Assembly: GCA_016287155.1 (NCBI GenBank)
Contig: JAEEWC010000051.1
Span: 1 to 46,115, forward strand
Origin: Clostridia bacterium
GTDB lineage: Bacteria > Bacillota > Clostridia > Christensenellales > UBA3700
Direction of reading: 5' to 3'
Length of the DNA stretch: 46,115 nt
Under the pieces are notes generated by a model. That model did no database searches. It saw nothing but the letters and a program-made list of their open reading frames with translations, and was not told the DNA's origin. Below are positions 13,308 through 37,659 of this stretch, piece after piece; position 1 is the first letter of the stretch; each line of letters opens with the position of its first letter. Both the position numbers and the translations under genes were made by a program.

Positions 13308-13314
13308 TTATTCC

Positions 13315-16300: not shown

Positions 16301-19300
16301 GATAAAACTACAGTATCTTTGCTGTTTGTTAATGCATTAGTGTATATCTTGCTTGTTATTACAGCTTCTCTTGTTTGCTCTTCTCCATTATATGTATAAT
16401 CAATAGTTCCCCAATCTAAAGAAATCTTAGTTCTATATACATAATATGTATACATTTTATTTACGTAGCTTGTAGCAAGCTCGTAATTTGAAGAATTGAA
16501 AGAATCTTTCAACCCAAGTATTTCAACTTCATATGTACCGGCATCAACTGCCTTATTGTTGATAGTATAATTTGTATAAGTATCTTGGCTTGATGCTCCT
16601 GTATTTGTATATATAATTGGCAAAGTAGTAAACAAATTACTATCTGCAGGCAAATAGCCTTTAACTTTCAAAGATAAACCAGTCAAATATTCCCCGTTAT
16701 AAGTAACAGTATCGTTTGAACTTTCTTTTTCTAAATAAATCTCAGCTCTATTAATAGTAAATACTTTTGACAATGCACTTGTAGTGCCAACTAACGTATA
16801 ATTTGAATTATCCGCAATAGATTCAACACTAATTGTATATACACCTGCATTCTTGGCTTTTGGAGAAGAAATTGTGCTTCCGTCGATGTATGCAGATCCT
16901 GAGCAACTATAATTAACATTTACTGCATCAGCTCCAATATTTGCGTAATTAATTTCAAAGCTATGAATTGTACCATCATAAGTATAGTTAGTTGCTGGCC
17001 ATGTCCAAGCTAATACTTTTGGATAAATTTCTACCTCTAAATGAGAATTTGCTAAAGATGTTCCATCAAAATCATAATTTGAATTTGTTACGCTATTAAC
17101 TATTAGAGAATAAGTCCCCGCATTTCTTGCATACAAGTAGAAAATACTCCTATTGGTGTCATATGTTCTATATTCGAAAGTTCCTCCTTGTGGTTTTGAA
17201 ATAGACAAATCCCCTATTCTAAAATTTCTTGCATACGTTGAATCGGCAAACCCACTCACAGTCAATTTAATACAATCAATATCATCTCCTGAATATACAT
17301 AATCAGATGAAGATGCACGAGCTAGAGCAAATGTTAGCACTCTTTTGTTAATTGTATAAGCTTTAGTCAAATTGTCTTCTGGAAGACAATAGTTAGAGTT
17401 GCTTAAGCTAACTAATCTTATGCTATAATTCCCCGCCTCTCTATAAGTATCGACTACCATTCCATTTTTATATACGGCATACGAGCCAGATACGGAATCA
17501 CCACTGCAAACATTTGAGAATGATGCAGTATCATTTTTATTACTTCCATCATAAGTAAATGTATTATTTGACCAAGTTACACCAACGACTCTTTTATTAA
17601 TAACCCAATTAAACATTTTAGTCGAATCATTAATTGCATAATTACTATTATTTAGATTTGTTATTGTAGCAATATATGTTCCTGCAGCATTAAGCCTATA
17701 GTTTGCCATATTACTAATAGTTGGAGTTAAAGAATCTTTCTCCCCGCTATCTTCTCTTACACACAATCCAGTAAATACAGGCTTAACCGAATGATAATTT
17801 TTATCATAAACAAAATCATTGTCCGTATATGCCTCTAATGTATCTCCATTAACCCAACTATTTGTAATTGTCTTTTGATTAATCGCGAAAGAGTAAGTTA
17901 GATTTTGAATAGTATAATTAGAGAAGGTATTTTTACCTTGAGCTATTGTATATGTAGTTGCATCAATTGCTTTAAATTTTACAACAATACAACCATTATC
18001 TATAACTACACCATTTACCATGGTTACTTTACTTGCTGGGGTGCAGTTATATGTAAAGAACGAATTATCTACTGAATTTAAATCATCTCTAAGTGGAGTA
18101 TTTACAAATCCATCATATCTAAACCCGAATTCATGATATTTACCATCATAAATAGTTGCCGGGCCATTATATTTAGACACAGTTATTGATTTTTTCGTTA
18201 TTTCCCAATTATAGTTGCACGTATCGTCAACCTTATAATTTGTATTAGTTGTTGAAATTGTTGCTGTATAATAACCTACATCAATAGCAGTCTCGTTATT
18301 ATATGCCAATGGGATTTCATCGTTACCACATCTATTTGTAACAGATGCAACAACACTATGATTAAAGCCATTATAGACTAAATTATCATCTGTGTCCGAT
18401 AAGTGCCATTCTAGTTTCAACAATCTAGGTTTAATATTAAATGTTGTACTACATTCTTTATCTTCATAGTTGTTTCTAAATTGTTCATTCCCAATTGAAT
18501 TAATTGAGACATTGTATGAATCTGCAGAAATGCCTTTAAAACTAATAACCCTACCATTTGTACTGTTATTAATTGTTGTTGATGTACATTTAGGATATGA
18601 TCCTGCGAACGTAGTAATGTTATTAATATCTCTTTGGTAAACATTTGAGATTGTTAATTGAAGAGCTTGTTCTAATCCGTTATAAGTAAACTCTTTTGTT
18701 CCCCACTCTACAGTATAACTAGCCTTGTTTATCTTTAGAGTTGAAGTCATATTCTCAGAGTTAAGAACATAATTATTATAATTAGAGACAATACTATTAA
18801 TAGTTGTTGTATATTCTCCAGCATCTATTGATGAAAAACCGATTGTTACCTTTCTATCATTATTGTCTATTAAACCTATAGAGCCATCACTAACATATGT
18901 CATTTTTTGCATAATGTTATTTCTTGTATATTGCTTAGCATCATCGTTAAAGAATCCAGTTAACGCTAGCTCCATTGCTTGAGATGCTCCATTATAAGTC
19001 AAAGTTTTGTTAGACCATTGAGCATTAATAACCGCTGGATTAATCTTAACCACTCGTGACGTTAATAATATTGTAGAAGCTTCATAGTTATTGTCATTAA
19101 AACCTAATATTTGTATATTGTAATCACCAACATTCTTTGCCTCAACTTTTACTTTCAATGCACCATCATTTGGTTTTTGTTCTGTCGTGAATACCAAGCT
19201 CGATGTATTTAATTGAAGACTATTATTTGCATTTTGAACGTCAGTTCTTGCTAGCCCAGAAATTGTAAAATCATATATTTGAGTCTCACCATTAAAGGTT

Positions 19301-21944: not shown

Positions 21945-23894
21945 CTATTTTATCAGTTTTTCAACTGCTTGTCTTATATATGATTTATAATCTATTTTAG
22001 ATAATTCTGAGGCATGTTCAAGTACTCTAACTACCTTGCCTTCTTCAATGTTTTCTTTAGATCTATAATAGATAACATTATCTTCAGCTCTACGCCAAAT
22101 TTTCAAAACTTTATTATTTGTAGTTGCAACATTACAACAGTTGCAAATATATTCATCTTCACTACCTGGGACCTTTATTGCATATGACTTATCTGAGTCA
22201 AAGAAATAATCTCCTCCGCAAGATTTACAAGTCTTTATATTTGAAGCTAATGTAATCTTTATATAATCAGCTGGGACATTTACAATTGCCCCTAATTCTT
22301 CTTTAAAACTCTCTAAGCAACCATATTCAACATAATCTTCTTTGAAATCATCATACTTTCCACTTGCATCTTCTAGCACGCCAAAGATAAAGTTGAATAA
22401 TTTATTCTCATCTCTATCGCCTTTACCATTTATTAACTTATCTCTATTTTTTCTATCCAAATTGTTTACTAGATATTTATATGAATACTTTGCAAAATCT
22501 GCATCAGTCGCAATTTCTTCTCCGGTTAAGCAATTAATAAATGAATACCTCTTTGTATCCCCTTTACTTTGAGCGCCAGTTAAGAAGTGTGATATTACTC
22601 TATCTTGTCCATCTGGATACATCTCATCATGAATCCAGCTTAGATATTCTTTACAATCACAATAATTAACAGTATCCTCAACCGTTGTTATGTTTCTTAA
22701 GAAATCTTTTTTTGATTGAGTATCTCTATTTATTTCATAACCTTTATCCAATAGGCCCTTTTGTTGTTTACCATCGCCTTTAATGTAAATGCTCTTCAAA
22801 TGCCATTTTCCACATCTCTTGCATTGCTTCATGCATTCATTACAGCCAATCGGATATAAAAACTTATCTTTGCCAATGTTAATCTTCAATTCCTTGTCTA
22901 TATGCAATTTCATTGGCTCTTTATTATTTTGAGCATTCGCCTTTGAGTCATTCTTACAAATTGGACAAGTAAATGAATTCTGAATACTTTCTTCTTCCTT
23001 TGCAAAGAATGGAGAATAATAAGTGATATATTCAGCATCCAAAAATTCTGACTCGTCAGCTCTTGGATTCTTTTTCTTAAACTCAACTTTAATTGGAGTC
23101 TTTAAATACTTAATACAATAAACAGCTTGAACTGTAATACGTTCAATATTTGAATCTTTTAAATAATATGCCTCTAGCGCATCTTCTAGATTCTTTTTAA
23201 AGTTTGGATCATATTCTTCTGTTTCTTCTTCAAGAGGAACTTTTCTATTATCAGCATTCTTTAATTTTTCTTGGAACTTCTTTTCATCAACGCTATCAAC
23301 TACATTATATTTATATTCGTTTTCGCCAATGTAAGTAGCATATACTAAGATATTCTTTGGCTCATCGTTTTCGTTAATAGATCTAAAGATACAGCTACAT
23401 CTATATACATAGTCTGCGGCAGCTGATTCTCCAGATATAATACTTACTTTAATTGAACCAATCTCTGGATCATTTTTATCTATAATGCTATCTGATATTG
23501 CTGATTCAATAGAATCTCTTGTATCATCGGCGATATTATCTAATTGAAGGTTTACTTCTTGCTTAAAGAAAGCAACTTCAGAATAGGCTTCCTCAAGTAG
23601 AACCTTTTTGTTACGTTCATTATCGATAATATCCCAACCATCAGAATCCTTTGCGCTATTAATACTATTGTAGAAGAAATAATTATACTTTTGAGCTTCG
23701 CCTTCTACTGGCTTATCGATTGAGTTATTTGTATTTAGGTTAGTATCAACAACTACATATTTTTTATCCTTAATTAATATTGCTGTACTATTTTCTTGTG
23801 GAAGATAATTTGGGATAGCAACCCCAGGACTTCTCTTTTCAGAATTGATAGTCTTTAATAGCTCGGCAATTTCAACTAAACTTGCATTATTCAT
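21945..23894 (-). CDS. Multi-zinc-finger protein coupled to the SNF2 helicase
   Basis: I do not recognise the family of this 649-aa protein. It has an acidic N-terminal half with no evident motif and several CxxC clusters: CPICK near residue 309, a dense CNECMKQCKRCGKWH near 349-363, CDC near 413, CKSCGG near 555 and CNCC near 585. These would build two or more zinc ribbons or treble clefs, suggesting nucleic-acid or protein binding. A longer frame starts at 23933, but GGAGG eight bases before the ATG at 23894 and the ATGAATAA overlap with the helicase stop favour this start. The 8-bp overlap implies translational coupling, so it is probably a partner of the helicase. No membrane segment is present. 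Confidence 0.75.
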   Translation of the reverse strand: MNNASLVEIAELLKTINSEKRSPGVAIPNYLPQENSTAILIKDKKYVVVDTNLNTNNSIDKPVEGEAQKYNYFFYNSINSAKDSDGWDIIDNERNKKVLLEEAYSEVAFFKQEVNLQLDNIADDTRDSIESAISDSIIDKNDPEIGSIKVSIISGESAAADYVYRCSCIFRSINENDEPKNILVYATYIGENEYKYNVVDSVDEKKFQEKLKNADNRKVPLEEETEEYDPNFKKNLEDALEAYYLKDSNIERITVQAVYCIKYLKTPIKVEFKKKNPRADESEFLDAEYITYYSPFFAKEEESIQNSFTCPICKNDSKANAQNNKEPMKLHIDKELKINIGKDKFLYPIGCNECMKQCKRCGKWHLKSIYIKGDGKQQKGLLDKGYEINRDTQSKKDFLRNITTVEDTVNYCDCKEYLSWIHDEMYPDGQDRVISHFLTGAQSKGDTKRYSFINCLTGEEIATDADFAKYSYKYLVNNLDRKNRDKLINGKGDRDENKLFNFIFGVLEDASGKYDDFKEDYVEYGCLESFKEELGAIVNVPADYIKITLASNIKTCKSCGGDYFFDSDKSYAIKVPGSEDEYICNCCNVATTNNKVLKIWRRAEDNVIYYRSKENIEEGKVVRVLEHASELSKIDYKSYIRQAVEKLIK

Positions 23895-26800
23895 TCTCAT
23901 CGCCTCCGCTAATAATCTTACTGAAGTCCTCAACTGTTAATTGTGATACAAACTTTGTCATATTATCTGCGTTGTTTCTAACAACTGAGCAGAAATATTC
24001 AAATAGATCAATAATAGGGGTCAACTTGTCTTTGATATGTTTTGTATATCTATTTAAAATCGGATTTGTAATATCTTGAATCTTACTTATATTAAGATAC
24101 GATTCATTCTCCAACTTTTCCTTTTGGTTAGAAAACGCTTTTTTAGCTTTTTCTAATTCTGCCAATATTGTAGACATTTCGTCTGTGTTATTCTTTTGCT
24201 TACGCTTTGATGTTGTTGTAATTTGCACACCACCATCGTATTTTTCAATTTGCTCTTCTTTGTTATATTCAATTAATGCTTTCAAGAATGATATCATCTT
24301 TGTGTAATATAGATTGATTTGCTTAATAAATACATTGATATCATTTGTAGTGTCTTTTTCTTTAATGTTACTTTGACCAACTTTCTCAGAATATGATTCC
24401 GCTATTTCTCCTAATTCATTAAACAAAACCACATCATCTTTTGTCGATTGTATATTTGCTAATAATTTTTGGACTATTGGCTCGCCTTTCTTTAAAAACG
24501 CAAAATATTTAATTTCATCTTGTTTTTGCGCTTCTGAAATATCAAACAATTCCTTAATGCCATTAAAGTATTCCATCTCTTTAGAATCACTAGCAAAATT
24601 CTCTTTAAAGATTTCGCACTTATCTAATAGTTCTTTACCATAAGCATAGAAGTTAGTAGCATCATAATCATACAAACTCTTGTATACTTTATCTATAGAT
24701 ATCATGATATCTTCAAAAGTAGCAGAATTCTCATGTCTACCAATAGGCATAGATACAATACCTGTTGTATCGCCCTTCCAGCTTGAGAATAATTCCAATT
24801 CAAATGCTAAGAATTCAACAATAAATCCACTTAAATCATTCAATGGTGCGAACGAAATAATCTTTAGATTAGGTTGCTCTACTGCGCTTAATTTAACTCT
24901 ATCGATTCTTCCGATTCTTTGTTCCATTTTTAATGGACAATACTTAATATCAAAGTTAATTAATATATCAGAAGTTTGTAAATCAACGCCTTCTTCGTAT
25001 TTATTAGGTTCGACTACAATAATGCAATTTTTATTATCTGTATTGGCTTTTGATAGGTCTTTAATATCCTTTCCTATAGACCAAGCATCTTGAGGATGAC
25101 GTCTATTATATACGCACAATGGCCAATGCTTAAATCTTGCAAAGTAATCTTTTTCAAAGTCTTTATCTTCTTTGAATTTTGTTGCTTTAAGAGTATTGTT
25201 ATCAAATAGTGGCCCTAGGGTTTCTTTATAATTCTTTAGCCATAAATCGTAATCGCTTTCAATTCTTAGCCAATCTAAAATAGCATCATAATTATCTATC
25301 TCTTCATTCTTTTCAGAGAACAATAATACCTTGCCTTTTATCTTGTTATCTTCTGTTACCTTTTCATCTGTTATTAGTTGTAATAACATATGTAGTTTGA
25401 AGTTTGTATAAGAAATCTCGCCAACAGATTTAGAATAAAACTCTTCTCTCTCTCCAGATAATTGATCGTTAATCCAATTGTAGATTTCATAAGCGTGTTG
25501 CTTTGGAATGAATGCTGATCTAATTGCTTTTAAATTCTTTTCATGTTCAACTCTAGCTGCTTCAATTGATGTTGTATCATCTTGGCTAAGGTTATCCATA
25601 TTATTATCATATTCATCATTTTCTCTTTTAATCTCTTCGATTAATGGATTCTCAACCATCTTATTAAACAATGAATAAGTGTCATCTTTTTCTACTTCAA
25701 TTTCTTCTCTTACATCTTCAACGAATTGGTCAAATACTTCTTTTTGTGTAACGTGATCACTAAACAGGCTAGCCTCTTTTACGTCAAGGTGATGTTGCTT
25801 ATGTTTATTAATTCTATCCATAAGCATATTGCCAACAACAATATCAAAAATCTTATCGTTTCTCTTTATGAAATAAACAATACCATTTCGCTTACTCCAT
25901 AAAGGAAGATTTTGATAACTAGACACTTTATTACCTAAAGACTTACTGATGTAACTTGTGTGCTTATCATCTAAGCAATATGTTTGGTGCCTTGTTGATC
26001 TAATACCCATGCCTTGATACATCTTCTTCCATGTAACAACACCTTCTGGGTCTTTTACTAATTCACCAATAGATTTAATAATCTTTTCTTTACCATTCTT
26101 GTCGACTTTTTTATATTTATCTTCAAACTCATCTCTTGATTTATTGAAGCATACTTCATCGAACAATTCTTCATTAAAGAATCTTTCTTCTCTAATAAAA
26201 TTAATTGCCGCTTCATAAATTGCTTCTAGTTTTACTTGATTATAATCATTCTTCTTCATATAAGAGATGAAATCTTTATGATTTGCGAATTTCTCTTTGA
26301 ACAAGAATACATATTTTATAATGATGTCTTCATATGTATAGAAATTCAATGCATACTTTCTATAATCCGGTTTTCCTTCTCTAATGATTATATCTACTAA
26401 TTCTGAAATCATTGAATCATCTAAGTTATATAATGCCTTTCTTATCAAAGCATATGAATCTTTACTTTCTGTTAATAACTTCAAAAGATAGAAGTCAATC
26501 ATATCAGACTTAATTGGAGTAGCTGTCATAAAGATTTTTCTATAAGCTCTATTAGCTAAAGCGCTTACCTTTGGATACATACTATCTTTGTTTATAAAAT
26601 AGTAATCATCGAATAATGGGAATACGAAATAATCATTAAACACAGCCATATCAAAAGGCAATTTAACTTTGTCCGAGAATTCATTTCCTGCTAATGTTCT
26701 ATTATTCTCATTTCTTGTAATTGTCTTTGGCATTGGAAGCTTATAGCTTACATTAATATAATCATGTGCTTCATCTATAATTAGAGTTTCATATGACATA

Positions 26801-28056
26801 TCAATCAAGAAATCTATAACGCAATACCCTTTGTATTCAACATTTTCGATAGGATTCTTAGATAACACATCTCTATATTCAACACTAATTCTATGCTTTA
26901 AAAGAGGATATTTTGGATCATCTTTTTCAGTTACAACCTTACTTACAATTAATACAGCAAATAATCTCTTAACTTCACGTGCAATTCTTTTAAATATTGC
27001 ATTAATACTACTTTCATGAAGTGCCTTTTTTAGAGCCCCAATATTCTCTAGTAAATATATACCTCTTTTTCTCTTGATATAATCAAACTGTGTATAAATG
27101 CTATTCTTTAAAACATCGGCGTTAAACAGTGCATTAAATACACGCTCTGCATATTTGTCTTCATTGTCTTTAAATTTAATAATATCTAATGCTCTATCTA
27201 CGATGTAGTAATACTCCCCATCTTCATCAAAAAAATAATCATTGATACTTATACCATCTTCTAAGTCTAATTCTTTATGTATTGCTTTTACTGTCTCCAC
27301 AATAACTGGTCTTACTACTTCCATTAATATTTGATACTTTAAAGCATTATTGTTTGTGAATTTAAACTTATATGGGCTTGCCAATTCATGAATTTTCTCA
27401 ATCAATGTACTTTTATATTCTTTTAGGATACTGCTAATTACTTTTACAGATTTTGAAGTTACAGTATCATCAAGCGTTGGAATATCATCTTTTGACTTTC
27501 TACAAGAATCAAATGCTGAATAAAAAACTGCATATAAGTCATCCAAACTCTTAATTGCAAAAACTCTTGGCATTGTTTCTGGCATAGCTTGAACATTCTT
27601 CTTGCCCTTATCAATAGCAAATCTTTCATAGAAATTTCTAATACCGAATTTTCTAGCAAGTTCCTTCTGCCATTTCTCTGCCATATTTTCATTTGGAACT
27701 AAAATTAATAATGAATTTAATTCTTTCCTATAAGCAAGTTCGCTTATAATCATTCCAGCTTCGATAGTCTTTCCCATTCCTACTTGGTCTGACAAAATAC
27801 CACATTTACTGAAACGATATATGAAATCTTTTACGGCTTTGTTTTGGTATGAAAAAGCACTAGAGCCGGCTTCTCTCCATTCTCCAGAAATACCAAGGGA
27901 GATATAGTCTTCACTTTCAAGTTTTGCCTTTGGCTCTTCCTCTCCAGCTTTAATGACTTTATCTATTAACGCCCTTTTATTATCGCTTAGTTTTGAATTA
28001 TTGCTTCGAATAGATTTAATACTACTTTCGATGCTGTCATTCAAGATTATTTCCAT
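23887..28056 (-). CDS. SNF2/RapA-like superfamily 2 helicase or translocase
   Basis: The 1389-aa protein is a SNF2-family ATP-dependent DNA translocase. A Q-motif-like YQ is at 70-71, Walker A SDQVGMGKT at 89-97, DEAH at 428-431, motif III MTATPIKSD near 510, motif V EEGVDLQTSDI near 1020 and motif VI QRIGRIDR near 1045. Two features are unusual: about 330 residues of extra helical sequence between motifs I and II, and more than 400 between motif III and the second RecA lobe. The last 300 residues are coiled-coil-rich. Long helicases of this type occur in phage-defence systems such as DISARM, but also as RNA-polymerase recycling factors (RapA). It starts 13 bases after the TIR gene and overlaps the zinc-finger gene by eight bases. 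No nuclease domain was recognised. Confidence 0.88.
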   Translation of the reverse strand: MEIILNDSIESSIKSIRSNNSKLSDNKRALIDKVIKAGEEEPKAKLESEDYISLGISGEWREAGSSAFSYQNKAVKDFIYRFSKCGILSDQVGMGKTIEAGMIISELAYRKELNSLLILVPNENMAEKWQKELARKFGIRNFYERFAIDKGKKNVQAMPETMPRVFAIKSLDDLYAVFYSAFDSCRKSKDDIPTLDDTVTSKSVKVISSILKEYKSTLIEKIHELASPYKFKFTNNNALKYQILMEVVRPVIVETVKAIHKELDLEDGISINDYFFDEDGEYYYIVDRALDIIKFKDNEDKYAERVFNALFNADVLKNSIYTQFDYIKRKRGIYLLENIGALKKALHESSINAIFKRIAREVKRLFAVLIVSKVVTEKDDPKYPLLKHRISVEYRDVLSKNPIENVEYKGYCVIDFLIDMSYETLIIDEAHDYINVSYKLPMPKTITRNENNRTLAGNEFSDKVKLPFDMAVFNDYFVFPLFDDYYFINKDSMYPKVSALANRAYRKIFMTATPIKSDMIDFYLLKLLTESKDSYALIRKALYNLDDSMISELVDIIIREGKPDYRKYALNFYTYEDIIIKYVFLFKEKFANHKDFISYMKKNDYNQVKLEAIYEAAINFIREERFFNEELFDEVCFNKSRDEFEDKYKKVDKNGKEKIIKSIGELVKDPEGVVTWKKMYQGMGIRSTRHQTYCLDDKHTSYISKSLGNKVSSYQNLPLWSKRNGIVYFIKRNDKIFDIVVGNMLMDRINKHKQHHLDVKEASLFSDHVTQKEVFDQFVEDVREEIEVEKDDTYSLFNKMVENPLIEEIKRENDEYDNNMDNLSQDDTTSIEAARVEHEKNLKAIRSAFIPKQHAYEIYNWINDQLSGEREEFYSKSVGEISYTNFKLHMLLQLITDEKVTEDNKIKGKVLLFSEKNEEIDNYDAILDWLRIESDYDLWLKNYKETLGPLFDNNTLKATKFKEDKDFEKDYFARFKHWPLCVYNRRHPQDAWSIGKDIKDLSKANTDNKNCIIVVEPNKYEEGVDLQTSDILINFDIKYCPLKMEQRIGRIDRVKLSAVEQPNLKIISFAPLNDLSGFIVEFLAFELELFSSWKGDTTGIVSMPIGRHENSATFEDIMISIDKVYKSLYDYDATNFYAYGKELLDKCEIFKENFASDSKEMEYFNGIKELFDISEAQKQDEIKYFAFLKKGEPIVQKLLANIQSTKDDVVLFNELGEIAESYSEKVGQSNIKEKDTTNDINVFIKQINLYYTKMISFLKALIEYNKEEQIEKYDGGVQITTTSKRKQKNNTDEMSTILAELEKAKKAFSNQKEKLENESYLNISKIQDITNPILNRYTKHIKDKLTPIIDLFEYFCSVVRNNADNMTKFVSQLTVEDFSKIISGGDENE

Positions 28057-28069
28057 ACCTTATATATCC

Positions 28070-29932
28070 TTAATCTCTAAATCTTACCCACATTGCAGGC
28101 CTTACGCCTAATTTAAACACAGAAGATGCTCTATTTAAACAACCATACTGGTCTATACATTTCACTTCGTCTTTACCGCTTGAATCTGGACTTCTCAGCC
28201 ACCACCATTGAGCATTCTCTTTATCAAAATCAATGCTTTGTGGCAAGCCTTCTTCTTCAAATGCGATTCTACTGCCTTCAAATGACAAATATACTTCTAC
28301 CTCATTCTCGCTTAACAAGAAAATCTTATCGTATGTGTTTTCACATAAATATTTATTTGCTTTTTTCGTATATAAAGAATCTCTTGAATTGTCTACTTCC
28401 ATCTCAACAATTTGACTTTGCTCATCTTTATCAAAGCTATTCAATAAGAAGCTATGATTTAACCAATAATGCAAATTCGAATGGCTGTAGTTATTATCTT
28501 CGCGTTCATCATATTGGAATTGCTCAATAATCTTATCGCATATAACTAGTGACAATCCGTCTTTCTTATAAAGTGTTTTCCAATATAATTCTTTATTTCT
28601 ATAATTGCCTAATGGTCTTTTTTCACCTAGCCCTATATATATTTTTTGTTCTTCTTCTGAAATGTCATCAAACAAGAAATAATATTCTTGTCTAATTCTA
28701 TTTTTATCTTTTGTCAATCTCATAAGATTCTTCTTGATTGACATTATTTCATCATTTCTTTCTTGCTTGCCCTTTAATTTCGCTTTTAAATAATATTCCC
28801 ATAAAACCGCATCTTTTGGATAAATATCAAGTTGTTCATCGATAACTTGGATTGCCTTTTCGTATGATTTTCTATATTCTAGTAACCCTTCTATTTGATC
28901 TAGTTTTTGATAATAATCTTGAGAACGCGAATCTCTTTTTGTAACGACAATTGGGTTGTTTCTTATATTACGTGCTTCTATGATAGCAGCGCTAATTAAT
29001 TTTGCTAAGTCTTTATAATTATCTTTTTCAAAGCCATCAATCCAGTTTCTACCATCAGTAAACACTTTGGTTTCTGGGTCTGGTTCAACATTATCTAATC
29101 TATAAGTGATTCTTATTGCTTTTGGATTATGTTTTAAAACGTGACGAATTTCTTCATTACAATCTTTACTCTCTAAAGAGTCTTTTGACATTAGATATAA
29201 AAATACTGGGCAATGCTCTATGGCTGGCTTAATTCTTTCCCAATATAAACTCTTATCTGTTGATGCCTTTTCTAAGTTACGCTCACTATACCAACATAAA
29301 ATGTCGTTGTATTTTGTTTCAATATAATCAGCGATTTCTTTTGCCTTATTCTTTTCTCTACTGCTAAAGCAAATAAATACTTTTTTATCGTAGTAGATGT
29401 ATTTATTCTTTTCGATTTCTCTTGCTCTAAATGCAGCATCTAGTTTTTCTTTATAGCTATTGTATACACCTTGAGCCATAAAGAATTTTTCAATAGCAAC
29501 TCTTACCTCAATATCTGGGAATAATAAAAGTAATGTTGCTATTTCTTTTACTTCATCTAAAGTCAAAATAGTATCTGATAAATTTGCTAGAGTTCTTTCG
29601 TATGCTTGATAGTTATTCGTTAATTTATAATCAGATAATGCATATACAAAATTTGCAAAAGCATTTTCAGGATCATATCCTTTAATTTGAGTAGTAATGA
29701 CCTTTAGGTTATCGAAGTCAATTAAGTCGCTATGCTTTCTATTTAATGCGTCCTTGATAGTTTTCTTGAAGTTATCAATTTGCTCTTTCTTTAATTTCTC
29801 TGCGCCTTCTTTTATCTTTGCATATTCATCAACAGTTAAATGCGCACCACAAACTTCACATACATAGAATGTATCTCTAAAAATTAGACTCGATTCGCCA
29901 CATCTTGGACATTTAACTACTTCTAGTTTCAT
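28070..29932 (-). CDS. Zinc ribbon-TIR-DUF6273 protein
   Basis: The 620-aa protein has a zinc ribbon at residues 8-28 (CPRCG...CEVCG), a helical linker, a TIR domain at about 183-320 and a C-terminal DUF6273-like domain at about 420-620. The TIR begins KKVFICFSSREKNKAKEIADYIE, has a WYSERNL box and ends in a helix after RNWIDGF. Its CNEEI segment (E260/E261) sits where the catalytic glutamate of NAD-cleaving TIR enzymes is found. The C-terminal WWLRSP...GVRPAMW pattern is the DUF6273 signature, common next to surface and LRR proteins in gut Firmicutes. TIR enzymes in bacteria make signal nucleotides or deplete NAD in defence (Thoeris and others). Activity here is inferred. It is 12 bases downstream of the AAA+ gene. 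Confidence 0.85.
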   Translation of the reverse strand: MKLEVVKCPRCGESSLIFRDTFYVCEVCGAHLTVDEYAKIKEGAEKLKKEQIDNFKKTIKDALNRKHSDLIDFDNLKVITTQIKGYDPENAFANFVYALSDYKLTNNYQAYERTLANLSDTILTLDEVKEIATLLLLFPDIEVRVAIEKFFMAQGVYNSYKEKLDAAFRAREIEKNKYIYYDKKVFICFSSREKNKAKEIADYIETKYNDILCWYSERNLEKASTDKSLYWERIKPAIEHCPVFLYLMSKDSLESKDCNEEIRHVLKHNPKAIRITYRLDNVEPDPETKVFTDGRNWIDGFEKDNYKDLAKLISAAIIEARNIRNNPIVVTKRDSRSQDYYQKLDQIEGLLEYRKSYEKAIQVIDEQLDIYPKDAVLWEYYLKAKLKGKQERNDEIMSIKKNLMRLTKDKNRIRQEYYFLFDDISEEEQKIYIGLGEKRPLGNYRNKELYWKTLYKKDGLSLVICDKIIEQFQYDEREDNNYSHSNLHYWLNHSFLLNSFDKDEQSQIVEMEVDNSRDSLYTKKANKYLCENTYDKIFLLSENEVEVYLSFEGSRIAFEEEGLPQSIDFDKENAQWWWLRSPDSSGKDEVKCIDQYGCLNRASSVFKLGVRPAMWVRFRD

Positions 29933-29944
29933 AAACCCTCTAAA

Positions 29945-31117
29945 CTACGCTTCCATAAACCATGCATCTGGATCTGGATTTGTATCTATCCCTTCTAGCC
30001 CTTCTAAATCACAAACTTTGATTGTAGATAATTCTTCATCAGTTGGATCTTGTATTTCTGAAACGCGGATAGATTGATTTTGCACAATTGTTTCAAACAA
30101 GTTTCTAACATCACGTGCATTGCCAAAATTCTTATCTCTATTTTCGTATTTATTATTTAAATAATTAACCATTAAATCTTCTGCGTCAGGTTCAAGAATA
30201 AACTGACTCTTACTACACATGCGTTTAAATATATTAAACATTTCTTGGCCTGTATAATCTTCGAAGTTAATGTATGTTTTAAATCTTGATCTTAAGCCTG
30301 GATTTGAATCGATGAAATCTTTCATTAATTCATTATACCCAGCAACGATTACAACTAATTCGTTTCTATGATCTTCCATCGCCTTTAGAATAGTATCTAT
30401 TGCTTCTTGTCCAAAATCACGTCCACCATTACCATTTAATGTATAGGCTTCATCAATAAACAAAACGCCACCTAGAGCCTCTTCTATTCGCTTTGCTGTC
30501 TTTTCTGCTGTTTGGCCAACATAACCTGCAACCAACTTTGATCTATCTACTTCAACTAATTGTCCCGTCTCAACTATATCTAAAGCAGCATAAATTTTGC
30601 CCATCAAACGAGCAACTGTAGTTTTTCCTGTTCCTGGATTTCCAGTAAATACCATATGATAAGACATATCTGGAACCGGTAATCCTCTTTCTTTCTTTAC
30701 CTTAAATACTTTAATTTGTTTTACAAATGCATTGACTTGTTGCTTTACTACATTCAAGCCCTCAAGACTATTCAATTCTGCTAAAACTTCATCTAAGTTT
30801 GGCTTAACAACTGGCTTTGATTTAGGCTCCTCTTTAGTACGTGTATTCTTAGGTTCAATTGGAGGATTAGATGGAACTGGTTTTGCACAGCCTATTTTAA
30901 ATCTACAAAACTCCAACTTCTTCTCGAGTTTATCAAAATTGCTCTTCATTAAAGCAACTTTTTTCAAGTCAGAAGAAGTACTTGCAATGGACTTACAAAG
31001 ATCCATTGCTTGTTCTATTGATTGTATTGCTGAAGTATAATCCCCAGCAGTCATTTCTATATCTATCCTCTTATTTAGTCGGATAAATTGGTCTTCCATA
31101 GCATATGCTGCCATCAT
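29945..31117 (-). CDS. CbxX/CfqX-type AAA+ ATPase with helical MIT/TPR-like N-terminus
   Basis: The 390-aa protein has one AAA+ module at about 105-385 of the CbxX/CfqX (SpoVK, EccA) class: Walker A GNPGTGKT at 159-166, Walker B VLFIDEA at 218-224, the pore-type GYVGQT at 198-203 and arginine-finger candidates R276 and R278 in GLRSRF. Residues 8-76 form a three-helix bundle with a GDYTSAIQSIEQA turn that resembles an MIT domain, the adaptor by which Vps4 ATPases grip ESCRT-III tails. EccA-type TPRs are an alternative. A proline-rich linker (78-104) joins the two. The start codon abuts the stop of the ESCRT-III-like gene (TAAATG), so the two are co-translated and probably act together as substrate and disassembly motor. 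That pairing is inference. Confidence 0.85.
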   Translation of the reverse strand: MMAAYAMEDQFIRLNKRIDIEMTAGDYTSAIQSIEQAMDLCKSIASTSSDLKKVALMKSNFDKLEKKLEFCRFKIGCAKPVPSNPPIEPKNTRTKEEPKSKPVVKPNLDEVLAELNSLEGLNVVKQQVNAFVKQIKVFKVKKERGLPVPDMSYHMVFTGNPGTGKTTVARLMGKIYAALDIVETGQLVEVDRSKLVAGYVGQTAEKTAKRIEEALGGVLFIDEAYTLNGNGGRDFGQEAIDTILKAMEDHRNELVVIVAGYNELMKDFIDSNPGLRSRFKTYINFEDYTGQEMFNIFKRMCSKSQFILEPDAEDLMVNYLNNKYENRDKNFGNARDVRNLFETIVQNQSIRVSEIQDPTDEELSTIKVCDLEGLEGIDTNPDPDAWFMEA

Positions 31118-31690
31118 TTACCCCCAATTACTAACGTCAGCCAAGCCTGCTGCTTCAGTTGTATCTTTATCAGCTTGTTCTATTTCATCTTCAATTTGTT
31201 TTGCTAATTCTTCATCTATCTCTTGGTTCGTAGAAGAATCAACTTTATTGATTGATGCATTTACTGAGCTAAACATAGTATCCATCTTCTCAAACTTCTT
31301 TGAGAACTTATTATTAAATGACTTTAATTCGCCTAAAATACCTTTAACTTCTGAAGACATATTCACTTTTCCAACTTCTTTCATGACTTCGCCTATAGTT
31401 TTATATAGGTCCATTTTCATAAAAGCTTCATCAATCATAAATTTAAATTGTTCTAACTTGTTTAGGATTTCTGTTGTCTTATGTCTAAAGATTAATTGTT
31501 GTCTTAAAGTTTCCATTAATCTTTTAACTTCTAAATTATCCCCTTGTTTTTTAGATAAAGTGATTTTTTGTTTTAGTGCATCAATTTTTTCATCATATAT
31601 TGAAATATGATTATTGATAGAATCACTTACCATATCAAACTTAACATCTATTTGAACCTTATTTGGAGTTTTATTCTTCTTATCAAACAT
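31118..31690 (-). CDS. ESCRT-III/PspA-shaped helical protein
   Basis: The 190-aa protein is almost all helix. The first half is basic (long helices around ALKQKITLSKKQGDNLEVK and FRHKTTEILNKLEQFKFMID) and the last third is strongly acidic (QEIDEELAKQIEDEIEQADKD). Size, charge polarity and the acidic C-terminal helix match the ESCRT-III/Snf7/PspA superfamily, whose members coat and constrict membranes, but no diagnostic motif proves it. It carries no membrane segment or enzyme motif. It is directly followed by the AAA+ gene and preceded by another coiled-coil gene and an SPFH gene. That context is reminiscent of the B. subtilis PspA operon (ydjFGHI) and of Snf7-Vps4 pairs. Confidence 0.7.
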   Translation of the reverse strand: MFDKKNKTPNKVQIDVKFDMVSDSINNHISIYDEKIDALKQKITLSKKQGDNLEVKRLMETLRQQLIFRHKTTEILNKLEQFKFMIDEAFMKMDLYKTIGEVMKEVGKVNMSSEVKGILGELKSFNNKFSKKFEKMDTMFSSVNASINKVDSSTNQEIDEELAKQIEDEIEQADKDTTEAAGLADVSNWG

Positions 31691-31701
31691 AATATTCCCT
31701 C

Positions 31702-32616
31702 TTATATCTCCATGTTTTGAACGTCAATTCCGCTACTTTGATTTGTAACAGTTGTTACATCGCTAACTTCTAAACCTTGATTTCTTACAGTAGTGTTTGC
31801 TTCTTCAAGTTTTCCAGCCATTTTTGTAACTTGCTTTTGCTTTGTATTTTGAACCATTGTATCTTCTAATACTTTACCGAATTGATCAACAATTTCATCA
31901 GGCAAATATGTTTCTTGATTTCTTTCAATGTTTGAAACAAGTGTTGTGTAATTTGCAATTTGCAAATCTAAAGCATCTTGCTTCTTTTGTAATTCATCTT
32001 TTTCTGCTTTGATTTGAAGCATTTGCTTTCCAATAATTTCTTGTTGTGCTTTGCCTAAAGATAGAGCTTCTTCTTTAAGTTGTGTAAATGTTTCAACTTT
32101 CAATTTGATTTGGTTGTTAATATTCTCTCTATTAACTTTAAATGTCATTAAATCAAGTTTGTTCTTTAGATAATTTCTATCTTCATAATATTTGTATGTA
32201 ACCATACTTCTTTGATTAGCAAAGTGGTCAATTTCATTAATAGCTGAAGATATACCATAGAAGTTTTCTTGATTGCAATATAAAACTAATTGCTCTACAT
32301 ACTTTAAGATAAAACCATCAATAGCATAAACTGCTCTTGCGTTTTGATCTACAGAACCTGTTTTAATATTTTGCATAATAGCTCTAACACGATCTGCTTG
32401 TTCATAATATTTAGTTTGAGAAATCTTGTTATATGCTATATTTAGACTATTCAATATTTCATGCTTTTGCTTTTCAATATCGTAAATAGCTCTTCTCTTT
32501 GCTCTATTCTCTTCACGAGACAATTCTCTATCATCAGTCTTTTTGATTTCAACACCAAAAATTCCATTCATTTCTTCTTTTGTTACAGGCTTTTCTTTCT
32601 TTTTGAACCATAGCAT
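31702..32616 (-). CDS. Coiled-coil protein of the SPFH/AAA+ cluster
   Basis: I do not recognise the family of this 304-aa protein. It is nearly all helical, begins MLWFKKKEKPVTKEEM with a short basic or amphipathic N-terminus that could touch the membrane, and has a long coiled coil at about 165-235 (LKEEALSLGKAQQEIIGKQM and onward). The C-terminal 40 residues are polar and T/V/N-rich. It may be a second ESCRT-III/PspA-like subunit; the length is somewhat greater than PspA (about 220 aa). It lies between the SPFH gene (13 bases) and the ESCRT-III-like gene (11 bases), so a structural partner role is likely. Confidence 0.7.
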   Translation of the reverse strand: MLWFKKKEKPVTKEEMNGIFGVEIKKTDDRELSREENRAKRRAIYDIEKQKHEILNSLNIAYNKISQTKYYEQADRVRAIMQNIKTGSVDQNARAVYAIDGFILKYVEQLVLYCNQENFYGISSAINEIDHFANQRSMVTYKYYEDRNYLKNKLDLMTFKVNRENINNQIKLKVETFTQLKEEALSLGKAQQEIIGKQMLQIKAEKDELQKKQDALDLQIANYTTLVSNIERNQETYLPDEIVDQFGKVLEDTMVQNTKQKQVTKMAGKLEEANTTVRNQGLEVSDVTTVTNQSSGIDVQNMEI

Positions 32617-32629
32617 AATTTAATTCCTC

Positions 32630-33568
32630 CTATTGTTTAGTTCCACATACTGAGCAAAATGCTGCACTCTTTGGAAGCTTAGCACCACAATTTGGGCAGT
32701 ACTTATCTGTAATATTTATTGGGGCTTTTGCATTTCCGTTTGTTGTTAATGTTGTGTCTACGACTTTTTCTTCAAATTGCGAACGATTTATTCTTGCCAA
32801 ATCTAATTCATGTTGAAGTGCTTTATCTTGTTCAGCTTGTCTTCTAGCATATTCCTTTTCATCTTTTTGACCTTCTAAATCATCTATTGCATATTTATTA
32901 ATAATATCTAAAACTTTTGTAATTGTTTCATCTGTTTCATCAACAGTATTTACGTGCATAGCAATAGAGTTTGGTTGAAGAGTTAATCCAATTTTTGATA
33001 AAACTCCTAATGTTTTTCTTGAACCCTTGAAAACGTCTTTAGCAACTTCACCTAATTTTGCATGCAAATCATTTTCTGTTGTTTCTGGAGTAATTATTTT
33101 CTTTATAGCATCTGAAATTTCATCGCCTAACATTTGTCTATATTTAGTATTAATTTCAGCTTGCAAATCAGCCTTTGTAAGAGTTTTATCGAAAGCTTCT
33201 ATTAGTAATTCATAATCAGTTACCATTACTTCAATAGAACCAACAACTGCGAATTTTAATTTTGCAGCAGGTAAATAACTCAAAGCGCATGTATGTTGAC
33301 CGGCGAAGAATTTAATCAAGATTGTATTAAACATCTTATCTGGGTATAGATAGCAATCTACAACATCCTTTCTATTTCCGCCTAGCATATCTGCATCTAA
33401 GTGATACGCATTTGGGCTTCCTTGATACTTCATTCCGCCAACAAATGCAACAGATCCACTCTTAACATATAGATCTATGTCTGACTTTTTTAGTTTAATT
33501 TCTGTTTTTTCAACAAGCACATCTTTGCTTGATAGACCAACTTTAATGCTTTGTGTAAATAAACCCAT
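32630..33568 (-). CDS. SPFH (YdjI/virion-core-like) protein with C-terminal zinc ribbon
   Basis: The 312-aa protein has an SPFH/band-7-like domain of the YdjI type over about residues 20-230, a charged coiled segment at 230-275 and a C-terminal zinc ribbon CPNCGAKLP...CSVCGTKQ at about 290-312. SPFH proteins assemble into membrane-associated cages and recruit partners. YdjI is encoded beside PspA in B. subtilis. There is no transmembrane helix, so membrane contact would be peripheral or through partners. It is the first structural gene after the regulator, two bases from its stop, and the two share a similar ribbon (CPxCGxK). Confidence 0.82.
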   Translation of the reverse strand: MGLFTQSIKVGLSSKDVLVEKTEIKLKKSDIDLYVKSGSVAFVGGMKYQGSPNAYHLDADMLGGNRKDVVDCYLYPDKMFNTILIKFFAGQHTCALSYLPAAKLKFAVVGSIEVMVTDYELLIEAFDKTLTKADLQAEINTKYRQMLGDEISDAIKKIITPETTENDLHAKLGEVAKDVFKGSRKTLGVLSKIGLTLQPNSIAMHVNTVDETDETITKVLDIINKYAIDDLEGQKDEKEYARRQAEQDKALQHELDLARINRSQFEEKVVDTTLTTNGNAKAPINITDKYCPNCGAKLPKSAAFCSVCGTKQ

Positions 33569-33570
33569 AA

Positions 33571-33933
33571 TTATATATTCTCCTTTTTGTCACATAATGA
33601 AACTTTTTTTCCGCATACCGGGCAATATTGTACCCCTTTAGGAAGTCTTTCTCCACATTGTTTACATTTCACAATTGCACCTAAATCTTCAGCTTCATAC
33701 ATATCCTCAGCTTCTACATTTGAAGATTTATAATTTTTCCCCGTAATTAAATAATCTAAAGAAACATCTAAAGCTTCAGCTAAAGTAGATAAGATACTAA
33801 AATCTGGATTCCCATCATTTTGCTCCCACTTGCTTACGGCTCTATCCGTAACATTCAATTTTTCGGCTAACTGTAATTGAGTAAGATTTAATTCTTTTCT
33901 TCGTTTTTTTATACGATCCCCTATTGTTATCAC
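33571..33933 (-). CDS. XRE-family regulator with C-terminal zinc ribbon
   Basis: The 120-aa protein has a Cro/CI-type helix-turn-helix at about residues 5-62 (LTQLQLAEKLNVTDRAVSKWE) and a zinc ribbon CKQCGERLPKGVQYCPVCGKK near 90-112. The frame extends to an ATG at 33954, but AAGGAG lies inside that extension, seven bases before GTG at 33933, and the domain begins right after it; GTG is therefore chosen. It heads the 27-kb block, and the inverted repeat AAACTC-N11-GAGTTT next to the promoter is a likely autoregulatory operator. The ribbon could sense metal or redox state or bind the zinc-ribbon partners encoded downstream. Confidence 0.88.
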   Translation of the reverse strand: MITIGDRIKKRRKELNLTQLQLAEKLNVTDRAVSKWEQNDGNPDFSILSTLAEALDVSLDYLITGKNYKSSNVEAEDMYEAEDLGAIVKCKQCGERLPKGVQYCPVCGKKVSLCDKKENI

Positions 33934-33990
33934 AATAAATCTCCTTATTTGCATTAATACTTCACCGTTCTCAAAGGTAGCATTTTAGCA

Positions 33991-34183: not shown

Positions 34184-34897
34184 CTATTTCTTATTTAGAA
34201 TAAATGTACACTTTGGATAATTAGAACACCCTAAGAATTTTCCATATTTCCCTTCTCTCTCCACAAGCTTACCTCCACATCTTGGGCATATACCTTTCTC
34301 TAATTCTTTTTGTGTTTGTTTAATAATCCTAACATGTTCTTTATTTGATATTTTACTTGATGCATTCATCAATTTTTCATAAATTTCATCCATTTCTTCA
34401 GTTGAAAGATATGTACCATCATCAAATTTTTTCAAATAATATTTCAAATCATCAAGATTAACAACATTATCGCAATCAATTTTGTCCGCATTATTCTGTA
34501 CCATTACAACAAGAGAATTTACATGATATTTTTTGCCTATCACATTGCTAATATGATATACATGCGACTTGTTTTGCTTTAGCGGGTTAGTTAATTGATT
34601 CTTTTCTCCGTTAAATAAAACTTGAACCCACTTATCTTGGAATTCATTACCCAAAATCCATCCTATATAATTCTTTGTTTCTATGCAGAAAATACCATTA
34701 TGTCTTATTTCGATATGATCTATTTGATGAGTTTTATTATTACTATCTACAAGGATTAAATTATCTATATATCTATGTTCAACCTTACCAAACAAAATAG
34801 GATTCAATTTCTTATCTACTTTAGCTTCTCCAATTTTGCCCTTTTGCATATTGATTAAATCTTTCTTATATTCATTTATTATTTTAATTAGTCCCAT
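34184..34897 (-). CDS. NERD-domain protein with topoisomerase-type zinc finger
   Basis: The 237-aa protein has a NERD (nuclease-related) domain at about 17-130: GKIGEAKVD gives the first acidic residue, QIDHI the aspartate and IETKN the E-x-K pair of the PD-(D/E)XK fold. The C-terminal four-cysteine finger (CPRCGGKLVEREGKYGKFLGC then CTFI) is the topoisomerase I type that binds single-stranded DNA. NERD-topo-zinc proteins are thought to process DNA, but no precise role is established. AGGTG stands five bases before the ATG, and the perfect palindrome TTACATTAATGTAA is just upstream. It follows the PD-(D/E)XK gene by 58 bases and probably shares its promoter. Confidence 0.87.
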   Translation of the reverse strand: MGLIKIINEYKKDLINMQKGKIGEAKVDKKLNPILFGKVEHRYIDNLILVDSNNKTHQIDHIEIRHNGIFCIETKNYIGWILGNEFQDKWVQVLFNGEKNQLTNPLKQNKSHVYHISNVIGKKYHVNSLVVMVQNNADKIDCDNVVNLDDLKYYLKKFDDGTYLSTEEMDEIYEKLMNASSKISNKEHVRIIKQTQKELEKGICPRCGGKLVEREGKYGKFLGCSNYPKCTFILNKK

Positions 34898-34955: not shown

Positions 34956-35888
34956 TTATAGAGGAAAAACCGAATAACCAGAATCTCCAATTTTTAATGC
35001 AATGTTAGTCATTTCAACAACCTGATTTACTATATATCTAACATTGCTTTCTTGACTTTCAAAAGATTGAGTAAAGTTCACTTTTTTATCATCTGGCAAA
35101 TAATACTTAAGCATTAAGCCGCCACTAGTTGAGTCTTCAAAATGATAATCAGTAATATCTACATTTATCTCTTTAAAAACTTCTATAACTTCATTTCTAC
35201 GTCTTGCCATTTTTGAAAACTGGAAATCAATTGTATTTTGATCAGACTTATAGCACACTCCAAGCCCACTGACATTTGTTCCAAATTCTGGCCATAAAGC
35301 TGAACTGCCTCTTGATTTCTTTACACGATTAAACTTTAAGAAATTATAATCTATGTTTATTAAATCAATTAAACTATCCCAAAACGCGGTAACTTCCTTG
35401 TTCTCAATAGTATTACTGCGCTTTCTTACATTACACGATGCTTTAAACACTTCTCTGTCTAGGGAATCAACACATAATTTTTCTAAATCATTGTGAGATA
35501 TCCTCAAATCGTATTTTTCATTTGTTTTATAATCATTTGGGGCACATAAAACAACGAAGTGCTTTTCGAATCCCTCTTCGACTTTCAACAATTCAGCCCT
35601 TTTATCATATCTATCTCTTTGTTGAGGTTGAGCATCGGCGTTAATTTTGTCTTCAACAAATATGGCAAACTTTTTGCCATCATCTTTTTGAAAAATAAAA
35701 ACTATATCTGACTCCCCATATTTGCCTGGCTCTTCTTCTTGGACTAAAGAATGAAACGTTTTAACTAATTGCCCTGACATATTTACTTTATCAAAAAATA
35801 GTTCTTGCACAAATTTAGATTTTTGCATTTCTCTCATTATTGCAAAATCCGTATCTCTTTCTTCAATATAAGCCAATTTGTATTCCAT
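34956..35888 (-). CDS. PD-(D/E)XK nuclease-family protein (PDDEXK_4-like)
   Basis: The 310-aa protein has a PD-(D/E)XK core near residues 50-95: the aspartate is in GESDIVFIF and the E-x-K pair in FVEDKINADAQPQQRDRY, where the QxxRY helix is typical of the PDDEXK_4 family. The rest is mixed and of unknown role. An in-frame start at 35924 exists, but GAGAGGGA five to six bases before the ATG at 35888 fits better. Members are often found in defence islands and phage-related loci. NERD follows. A promoter with -10 TATAAT (plus 35930-35935) is placed well for it. Confidence 0.78.
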   Translation of the reverse strand: MEYKLAYIEERDTDFAIMREMQKSKFVQELFFDKVNMSGQLVKTFHSLVQEEEPGKYGESDIVFIFQKDDGKKFAIFVEDKINADAQPQQRDRYDKRAELLKVEEGFEKHFVVLCAPNDYKTNEKYDLRISHNDLEKLCVDSLDREVFKASCNVRKRSNTIENKEVTAFWDSLIDLINIDYNFLKFNRVKKSRGSSALWPEFGTNVSGLGVCYKSDQNTIDFQFSKMARRRNEVIEVFKEINVDITDYHFEDSTSGGLMLKYYLPDDKKVNFTQSFESQESNVRYIVNQVVEMTNIALKIGDSGYSVFPL

Positions 35889-35929
35889 TCTAATCCCTCT
35901 CAAAACCTCACATAATTTTACCAATTCAT

Positions 35930-36537: not shown

Positions 36538-37623
36538 TTAATCATCAAAATAAGTGTCATAATAGTCATCGTCATCATCATAATCGTAATTATCATCTTC
36601 ATCAGACTCGACATCATAATCCATTAAATACAAAAGCATTTCATATGCTGATGCCTTTTGAGCTTCTTTTTTCTTACTATCGTTATTAATAAATGATTCG
36701 TCTACGCCATCTATAGATATTTCACATGACCATACTTGATTCCCATTATCATCATATTCTTGATTGTATTCATAATTTGGCTTATTAATTAAACCTTTTT
36801 GAACCAATTCATTAATTTGACGTAGAGATTCTTCATAGCTAGGTTCTCCTACAGCTTCTTCAAACTCGTTAGTTATATATCCTTCATCTTGCAATTTGCA
36901 ATACATGTCTTCTGCTGCAACCATTCTCGCCTTTGCTTTACTTTTGCCTTCACCATAGCCCTCATAATTACAATCATCTAACTCAACTCTAACTATGCAA
37001 CTATATCCATCATATCTTTCATCGTATTTATACTCAGGTAATTCGTATCCACTTTTTTGGCACCATGTTTGAAGTAAGCCAACATAATTTTCATCTTCAT
37101 CGTCTTCGCCATTAAAATAAGCATCAAAATCAATCATTGTTTTTACAACGTCTGTAATGGTGTCCATATCATAATTGCAATCAACAGTTACCGCACCAAC
37201 AATTGCTTCAAATAAATCTTCTTTAACGGAATCTTGGTCTTGGATATTCTGACTTATATCACCTTTTCCCATAATCAATTCTGTATTAAATCCCAATCGA
37301 TCCATACATTGTGCTAAAGCTTTCTTTTGAACCAAATCTTTTTTGATATCAGTAAACTTACCTTCTGAATACTTTGTCTTAAAATAACTTGGATTTGTTA
37401 ATTTAAATTCTTGCCATTGTTTATCAACAGTAATGCGGCCAAATCTTTCCATCATTATTCTAATGACTGCTAGATCAAGCGCTTTATCGCCAATAAATTC
37501 TAGGACTTCGTTGTTTTGTCCACCTTTTTCTTCTGAATAACTTCTTCTTACAAATGCTTGTTGAAGTAAATCACCATTTGAAAATGTGTACCCAATTGTG
37601 TTTTCAATTTTGCTAACATTCAT
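36538..37623 (-). CDS. RNase III-family protein with two dsRNA-binding domains and an acidic tail
   Basis: The 361-aa protein has an RNase III domain at about 1-165 with intact catalytic signatures: NEVLEFIGDKALDL (E39, E42, D46) and VKEDLFEAIVGA (D136, E139). Two double-stranded RNA-binding-like domains follow at about 183-255 and 262-340, and the last 20 residues are nearly all D and Y. Housekeeping bacterial RNase III is about 230 aa with one dsRBD, so this is a distinct accessory type. GGAGG eight bases before the ATG at 37623 sets the start; an earlier TTG in frame overlaps that site. The leader carries a terminator-like hairpin. It may process or destroy foreign dsRNA. Confidence 0.85.
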   Translation of the reverse strand: MNVSKIENTIGYTFSNGDLLQQAFVRRSYSEEKGGQNNEVLEFIGDKALDLAVIRIMMERFGRITVDKQWQEFKLTNPSYFKTKYSEGKFTDIKKDLVQKKALAQCMDRLGFNTELIMGKGDISQNIQDQDSVKEDLFEAIVGAVTVDCNYDMDTITDVVKTMIDFDAYFNGEDDEDENYVGLLQTWCQKSGYELPEYKYDERYDGYSCIVRVELDDCNYEGYGEGKSKAKARMVAAEDMYCKLQDEGYITNEFEEAVGEPSYEESLRQINELVQKGLINKPNYEYNQEYDDNGNQVWSCEISIDGVDESFINNDSKKKEAQKASAYEMLLYLMDYDVESDEDDNYDYDDDDDYYDTYFDD

Positions 37624-37659
37624 AGTTAGATCCTCCAAAAAATTATTTGCATTGGAGAA

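Follow-up and report, generated by a model that had tools for sequence, protein, structure and literature searches.

An ESCRT-III-like gene followed by an MIT-like ATPase with a CbxX-type motor in a Clostridia bacterium: the probable core of a membrane-remodelling machine

Introduction

Can a bacterium carry a counterpart of the pair formed by ESCRT-III (endosomal sorting complex required for transport III) and its ATPase Vps4? According to Makarova et al. 2024 (PMC10936438), ESCRT systems with both components occur in archaea and eukaryotes only. The question is raised by two touching genes in a Clostridia bacterium of the order Christensenellales (assembly GCA_016287155.1), on contig JAEEWC010000051.1, of which positions 1 to 46,115 were analysed (46,115 nucleotides, hereafter the window). 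One encodes a helical protein of 190 amino acids (aa) and the other a 390-aa AAA+ ATPase. A preliminary description, made from the letters of the DNA alone, took them for a convergent bacterial version of the ESCRT-III/Vps4 pair. We propose instead that the gene pair is probably the core of a membrane-remodelling machine in which a bacterial ESCRT-III works with an MIT-ATPase whose motor has been swapped; gene order, predicted folds, family relations and recurrence are the computed basis of this explanation.

Results

An MIT-like domain on a CbxX-type motor

The two genes and the parts of the ATPase lie as follows.

31118-31690, minus strand: 190-aa ESCRT-III-like (Snf7-like) gene, with a basic N-terminal hairpin and an acidic C-terminal helix
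29945-31117, minus strand: 390-aa AAA+ ATPase gene
30893-31117, minus strand: MIT-like three-helix domain, ATPase residues 1-75 (AlphaFold2, Foldseek, VIA)
29945-30802, minus strand: CbxX/SpoVK-type AAA+ core and lid, ATPase residues 106-390 (Pfam AAA, AAA_lid_6; TIGR02881)

As first described, the genes touch: the 190-aa open reading frame (ORF) ends in a TAA (31118-31120) that is immediately followed, in frame, by the ATG of the ATPase (31115-31117). In an AlphaFold2 model predicted from the single sequence, the N-terminus of the ATPase formed a three-helix bundle (residues 4-24, 27-47 and 51-75), with a predicted local distance difference test score (pLDDT) over 90 in its core. When residues 1-75 were folded alone, Foldseek ranks 1-11 were all MIT domains, and archaeal Vps4 MIT domains also led the VIA comparison (Z 13.4, 1.5 A, 75/75). 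The modelled N-terminus therefore has the three-helix fold of an MIT domain, in agreement with the proposed MIT-like assignment, which ranked above TPR in both comparisons.

The AAA+ core is of CbxX/SpoVK type and not of Vps4 type, again as proposed. Pfam recognized AAA and AAA_lid_6 (E 3e-19), and the best NCBIfam models were SpoVK (TIGR02881, E 3e-83), EccA (6e-75) and CbbX (2e-66), all under their equivalog cut-offs; the Walker A (GNPGTGKT) and Walker B (LFIDEA) motifs are intact. The window ATPase thus has a CbxX/SpoVK core with AAA_lid_6 in place of a Vps4/Cdc48-type core with Vps4_C. Nor does it correspond to EccA, since its N-terminus is MIT-like, not TPR, and no ESX genes were found among the neighbours scanned. 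Among the neighbours of the plasmid CbxX genes inspected, no helical partner was evident.

A divergent ESCRT-III-like partner

The basic N-terminal and acidic C-terminal parts claimed for the 190-aa protein were borne out, the net charge being +4 over residues 1-75, +3 over 76-150 and -11 over 151-190. An AlphaFold2 model made with two sequences (pLDDT 77.6) placed helices at residues 9-48, 52-106, 113-149 and 160-189. The protein thus has the traits of ESCRT-III (a long helical hairpin with further helices, a basic N-terminus and an acidic C-terminus), but these are not specific. Archaeal CdvB2 topped the Foldseek list for this model, weakly (E 0.09); neither this list nor that of VIA was taken as proof. 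The best NCBIfam match was PspA (TIGR02977), a weak one (16.1 bits against a cut-off of 242.95, E 0.007).

When the 190-aa protein itself was the query, no convincing relative emerged from 391 genomes of the class, plasmids, phages or viral contigs, because the protein is too divergent. By contrast with shuffled sequences, of which the highest among 4,000 scored 12.9 bits, it scored 19.9 bits over residues 19-180 against a profile of the family described below that had been built without it, indicating that the match did not arise by chance; the E-value was 1.8e-6 among the 67 ORFs of the window and 2.7e-4 among 9,799 ORFs. An hhalign comparison with the family gave E 2.2e-5 over 150 columns (probability 76%). 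As judged from these alignments, the 190-aa protein appears to match the family over its full length, weakly. As to the C-terminal MIT-interacting motif of ESCRT-III proteins, the window protein has EELAKQIEDEI, and most relatives end in an amphipathic helix of the form I[DE]xxLxx[LI]. A match to the SipB coiled coil (phmmer against the PDB, E 0.005) and other partial matches were set aside as coiled-coil background.

Related operons in the same bacterial order

When genome contigs were searched with an alignment of CbxX sequences, the best among the matches listed was locus L136, whose CbxX core shares 65% identity with that of the window. The locus has a TIR gene upstream and contains an SPFH gene (Pfam Band_7_1), genes for a 109-aa protein and for helical proteins of 197 and 188 aa, the ATPase and then a trypsin-like protease; in the ATPase, a helical domain at the N-terminus is followed by two AAA+ modules, first a CbxX core and then a classical AAA. 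A search of the relatives of the L136 genome with the 188-aa protein yielded L219. Each of its two ESCRT-III-like genes has an MIT-like ATPase behind it, of CbxX type in one case and of RuvB type in the other. Within the genome of the window, a Pfam MIT search identified contig C6 (30.7 bits in six frames against a cut-off of 30; 28.3 by hmmscan), which carries (L222, 1-4014) ftsZ, an SPFH gene, genes for proteins of 117, 208 and 195 aa, and a gene for an MIT and classical AAA protein cut by the contig end. This is a second, standard-type ESCRT-like operon in the window's genome, directly downstream of ftsZ.

The family was recovered from 20 loci besides the window, mostly in the same bacterial order, giving 21 loci (the window, L136, L219, L222, L240-L254, L260 and L261) with 22 copies of the ESCRT-III-like gene, ESC_A. 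A profile of the ESCRT-III-like protein found it in 15 of 119 relatives from the order, a patchy distribution. Most of these genomes are in many contigs and are probably metagenome-assembled; for the standard version, the presence of the same operon beside ftsZ in several genomes of one genus speaks against contamination. The order SPFH, p117, ESC_B, ESC_A, MIT-ATPase is largely conserved, and the MIT-ATPase directly follows ESC_A in 20 of the 22 cases (exceptions, L251 and L254). The congeneric locus L240 (3822-14088) reads mraW, ftsQ, ftsA, ftsZ, SPFH, p117, ESC_B, ESC_A, MIT-AAA-Vps4_C, BrxL, TIR, NrdR and DUF6273; its ATPase is over the Pfam cut-off for Vps4_C (24.8 bits versus 21.3), matches AAA and is under that for MIT (24.6 versus 30). 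At L260 (9645-13415) and L261 (2770-6438), which lie in two small genomes from a single family, the gene directly downstream of the MIT-ATPase encodes a protein of 1256 aa and of 1222 aa, respectively; neither matched the TIR profile.

At the level of the family, the earlier view of the partner as ESCRT-III-like was upheld. The best solved matches of a 20-member profile were ESCRT-III proteins, namely CHMP2A (E 7.6e-5), Vps24 and CHMP3 over most of the length, then CdvB2 and CHMP1B, and no PspA or Vipp1 was listed to E 10 in this PDB search. Four of the 20 members matched Pfam Snf7 at E 0.1 or better, the L250 protein passing the cut-off (34.0 versus 27.3 bits) and the 191-aa protein of L219 falling just short (26.3), and the PspA family was absent from Pfam scans of the window protein and of the 20-member family. 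In most members, L253 and L254 excepted, the first 75 residues are basic and the last 50 acidic. A 19-member profile of the ATPase N-termini matched the MIT domains of calpain-7, Vps4 and archaeal Vps4 as single stretches. A confident TPR fold joined to a partner with no ESCRT-III fold had been named beforehand as the outcome that would count against the pair; what emerged was an N-terminus in which MIT outranks TPR and a partner whose family is ESCRT-III-like.

A probable exchange of the motor rather than convergence

Most relatives have one classical AAA domain behind MIT, so that the usual motor is of Vps4/Cdc48 type; two such domains were found at L244, CbxX plus classical AAA at L136, L243 and L246, CbxX alone in the window and at L219, and RuvB at L219. 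The best PDB matches of the classical AAA domains, which may belong to the clade of either Vps4 or Cdc48-D2, were p97/Cdc48; Pfam Vps4_C probably also matches p97. The RuvB-type protein with its MIT-like N-terminus (L219, 7315-9489) also resembles TnsA weakly (E 8e-4) close to its other end.

The CbxX core of the window formed a clade with the CbxX cores of the three MIT-CbxX-classical AAA proteins (support 100/99), which supports the MIT identity of the window N-terminus. The CbxX core of L219 grouped outside this clade and is likely a second recruitment. The convergence in the preliminary description lacks support on two sides, since operons elsewhere in this genome and in its order combine an ESCRT-III-like gene of this kind with MIT and Vps4/Cdc48-type ATPases, and the three MIT-CbxX-classical AAA relatives share the CbxX clade of the window. 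The ESCRT-III-like partner, the MIT domain and the CbxX core of that description are thus supported, and its convergence is not. Given the related operons and this clade, a homologous ESCRT-III/MIT-ATPase system with an exchanged motor is the simpler reading, and this is what the locus looks like.

Genes around the pair

The pair lies in a run of minus-strand genes that also includes the following.

33571-33954, minus strand: HTH_3 regulator with a zinc ribbon, the first gene of the run (Pfam HTH_3, E 9e-18; Zn_Ribbon_1, E 2e-6)
32630-33568, minus strand: 312-aa SPFH/Band-7-like protein with a C-terminal zinc ribbon (Pfam, E 3e-8)
31702-32616, minus strand: 304-aa helical/coiled-coil protein, in the ESC_B/p117 position of relatives
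28070-29932, minus strand: 620-aa protein with a zinc ribbon, TIR and DUF6273 (Pfam TIR_2, E 5e-13; DUF6273, E 2e-27)
23887-28056, minus strand: 1389-aa SNF2-like helicase (Pfam SNF2-rel_dom, E 6e-8; Helicase_C, E 2e-6)

From the HTH gene to the helicase, intergenic gaps are 0-13 bp, and the TIR-DUF6273 gene starts 12 bp downstream of the ATPase gene. The 312-aa protein is suggestive of an SPFH protein: against an SPFH profile freed of the zinc ribbon it gave an hhalign E of 7.5e-4 over 196 columns at a probability of only 25%, and its positional counterparts in L222, L136 and L219 pass Pfam Band_7_1. As a query, it matched only by its zinc ribbon and adjoining residues. The 304-aa protein matches the 307-aa protein of L219 in position (24% identity in a two-sequence alignment) and neither the ESC_B nor the p117 profile significantly; its correspondence to ESC_B/p117 is one of position.

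SPFH genes were found in most ESCRT-like loci. TIR genes occurred at 12 of 19 ESCRT-like loci and at none of the 79 CbxX loci that served as controls. Six of the ESCRT-like loci had supplied the sequences for the TIR profile, and when these were left out the count was 6 of 13 versus 0 of 79. BrxL was present at 6 of the 19 loci (0/79 in controls) and a trypsin-like protease at 7 (1/79). This recurrent TIR/BrxL/protease context suggests an immune or envelope-damage role. The window does not fit the ThsB plus ThsA make-up of Thoeris: its TIR gave a ThsB-type match of only E 4e-6, and no ThsA was found among nine proteins scanned with PADLOC.

Whether the SNF2-like helicase is part of the ESCRT-like system is uncertain; it has no homologue among the other ESCRT-like loci. 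A 662-aa protein that lacks a significant Pfam or NCBIfam match overlaps it (both within 21945-28056), and the two are possibly a separate defence module. Elsewhere in the window, two giant ORFs (6567-21936) encode probable surface proteins, one of 2246 aa with LRR_5 repeats and one of 2873 aa that matches MBG weakly. A Ribonuclease III-like protein with dsRNA-binding motifs in two stretches (36538-37638) lies near two others, a NERD protein (34184-34897) and one with a weak match to PD-(D/E)XK (34956-35924).

Discussion

Several results weigh against a swapped-motor ESCRT machine. By sequence, the window N-terminus scored a non-significant 3.3 bits against the relatives' MIT profile and had no match in a scan with Pfam MIT (PF04212), and the relatives' profile also scores on consensus TPR designs, mainly over residues ~14-41 and repeatedly. 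All Foldseek E-values, for the ATPase N-terminus and for the 190-aa model, are above 0.01. The best Pfam match of the 190-aa protein, Snf7 (PF03357), is under the cut-off (17.4 bits versus 27.3, E 0.0037), and VIA placed BAR domains above ESCRT-III chains for its model (CHMP3, Z 8.7). In the class at large, the family was found in 5 of 391 genomes, four of them in the same order.

An accessory role in FtsZ-based cell division, the window copy being a duplicate, is to our mind unlikely. The standard operon does lie downstream of ftsZ in C6 and in three congeneric genomes, and at L240 it stands among mraW, ftsQ, ftsA, ftsZ and nrdR, between the last two. However, most other loci are not beside ftsZ, the distribution in the order is patchy, no division gene was found in the scanned parts of the window, and the frequent TIR and BrxL neighbours suggest mobile or defence-type cargo inserted after ftsZ.

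We consider it quite improbable that the pair is a generic coiled-coil protein with a CbxX/EccA-type ATPase bearing a TPR N-terminus, that is, a chaperone/adaptor pair unrelated to ESCRT. The closeness of the core to SpoVK/EccA would fit such a pair, as would the unrelated N-termini of many CbxX ATPases in the class, the weak TPR matches to the window N-terminus and the AIP TPR in the VIA list, whose Z of 11.9 trails that of the top MIT domain by no more than 1.5. Set against this are the unbroken series of MIT domains at the head of the Foldseek list, the Pfam-recognized MIT, Snf7 and Vps4_C domains in related loci of the same gene order, and the grouping of the window core with MIT-CbxX relatives. 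A PspA/YdjI-like envelope-stress module, in which an SPFH protein recruits a divergent PspA and an ATPase has been added, deserves equally little credence: the SPFH-zinc-ribbon partner recalls B. subtilis YdjI, by which PspA is brought to the membrane (as cited in PMC10936438), and NCBIfam does name PspA for the 190-aa protein, but the Pfam scans and the PDB profile search returned Snf7, CHMP and Cdv proteins and no PspA or Vipp1, and the partner is an MIT-ATPase.

For the swapped-motor ESCRT machine, we infer polymerisation, binding of the tail by MIT, disassembly and an immune role. The 190-aa protein would form polymers at the inner side of the cell membrane, where the SPFH/zinc-ribbon protein may position it. 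Through its MIT domain, the ATPase would attach to the C-terminal tail of the polymer, so that its CbxX-type hexameric motor may extract subunits as Vps4 does. Behind the same MIT domain the motor would have been swapped, relatives having a Vps4/Cdc48-type motor or MIT, CbxX and classical AAA in one protein, and the TIR-DUF6273 protein of the run may tie membrane remodelling to an immune or envelope-damage response. A wider proposal, that one bacterial order holds a true ESCRT-III/Vps4 homologue with motors swapped behind a constant MIT (Vps4/Cdc48-type, tandem, CbxX and RuvB) and wired to TIR immune effectors, is one we advance tentatively, as somewhat short of an even chance.

The system shares SPFH and zinc-ribbon partners with archaeal and eukaryotic ESCRT-III and Vps4 (CdvB/CdvC; CHMP/Vps4), such partners having been reported in archaeal Meth_adaptin ESCRT loci (PMC10936438); it differs in being bacterial, in the CbxX-type motor of the window and in the TIR/DUF6273 and HTH genes of the run. 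The main text of Ravi et al. 2024 (PMC11237479) describes bacterial PspA/Snf7-superfamily genes beside AAA+ ATPases and band-7 proteins, as here, and bacterial Vps4-like transfers with no snf7; the bacterial AAA+ partners in that text are two-AAA proteins or lie in transporter operons, and it names neither an MIT and CbxX ATPase nor a TIR-domain link, the words CbxX, CbbX and TIR domain being absent from it. With SpoVK, CbbX and EccA of the CbxX family, the window ATPase shares its AAA+ core and lid; it differs from them in scoring under all equivalog cut-offs, in its MIT-like N-terminus and in its ESCRT-III-like partner. The PspA-YdjGHI system of B. subtilis likewise has an SPFH protein beside an ESCRT-III-superfamily protein, whereas the window family looks Snf7-like, not PspA-like; PspA-YdjGHI is not known to include an MIT-ATPase. 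No description of a system of the window type was found in the main texts of open-access PMC papers.

What the locus looks like is a version of the membrane-cutting ESCRT-III/Vps4 machine in a gut-type bacterium, with a swapped motor and beside immune-type (TIR) genes. If a bacterial lineage has ESCRT-III-like genes together with MIT-ATPases and SPFH partners, the map on which such systems belong to archaea and eukaryotes only would have to be redrawn, and the question would arise of transfer versus deep ancestry, which a tree can address. If the motor was swapped while the MIT domain in front of it stayed constant, what is conserved would be recruitment and not the kind of AAA+ core. The repeated association with TIR genes provides a case in which a part for membrane remodelling in bacterial immunity can be put to the test.
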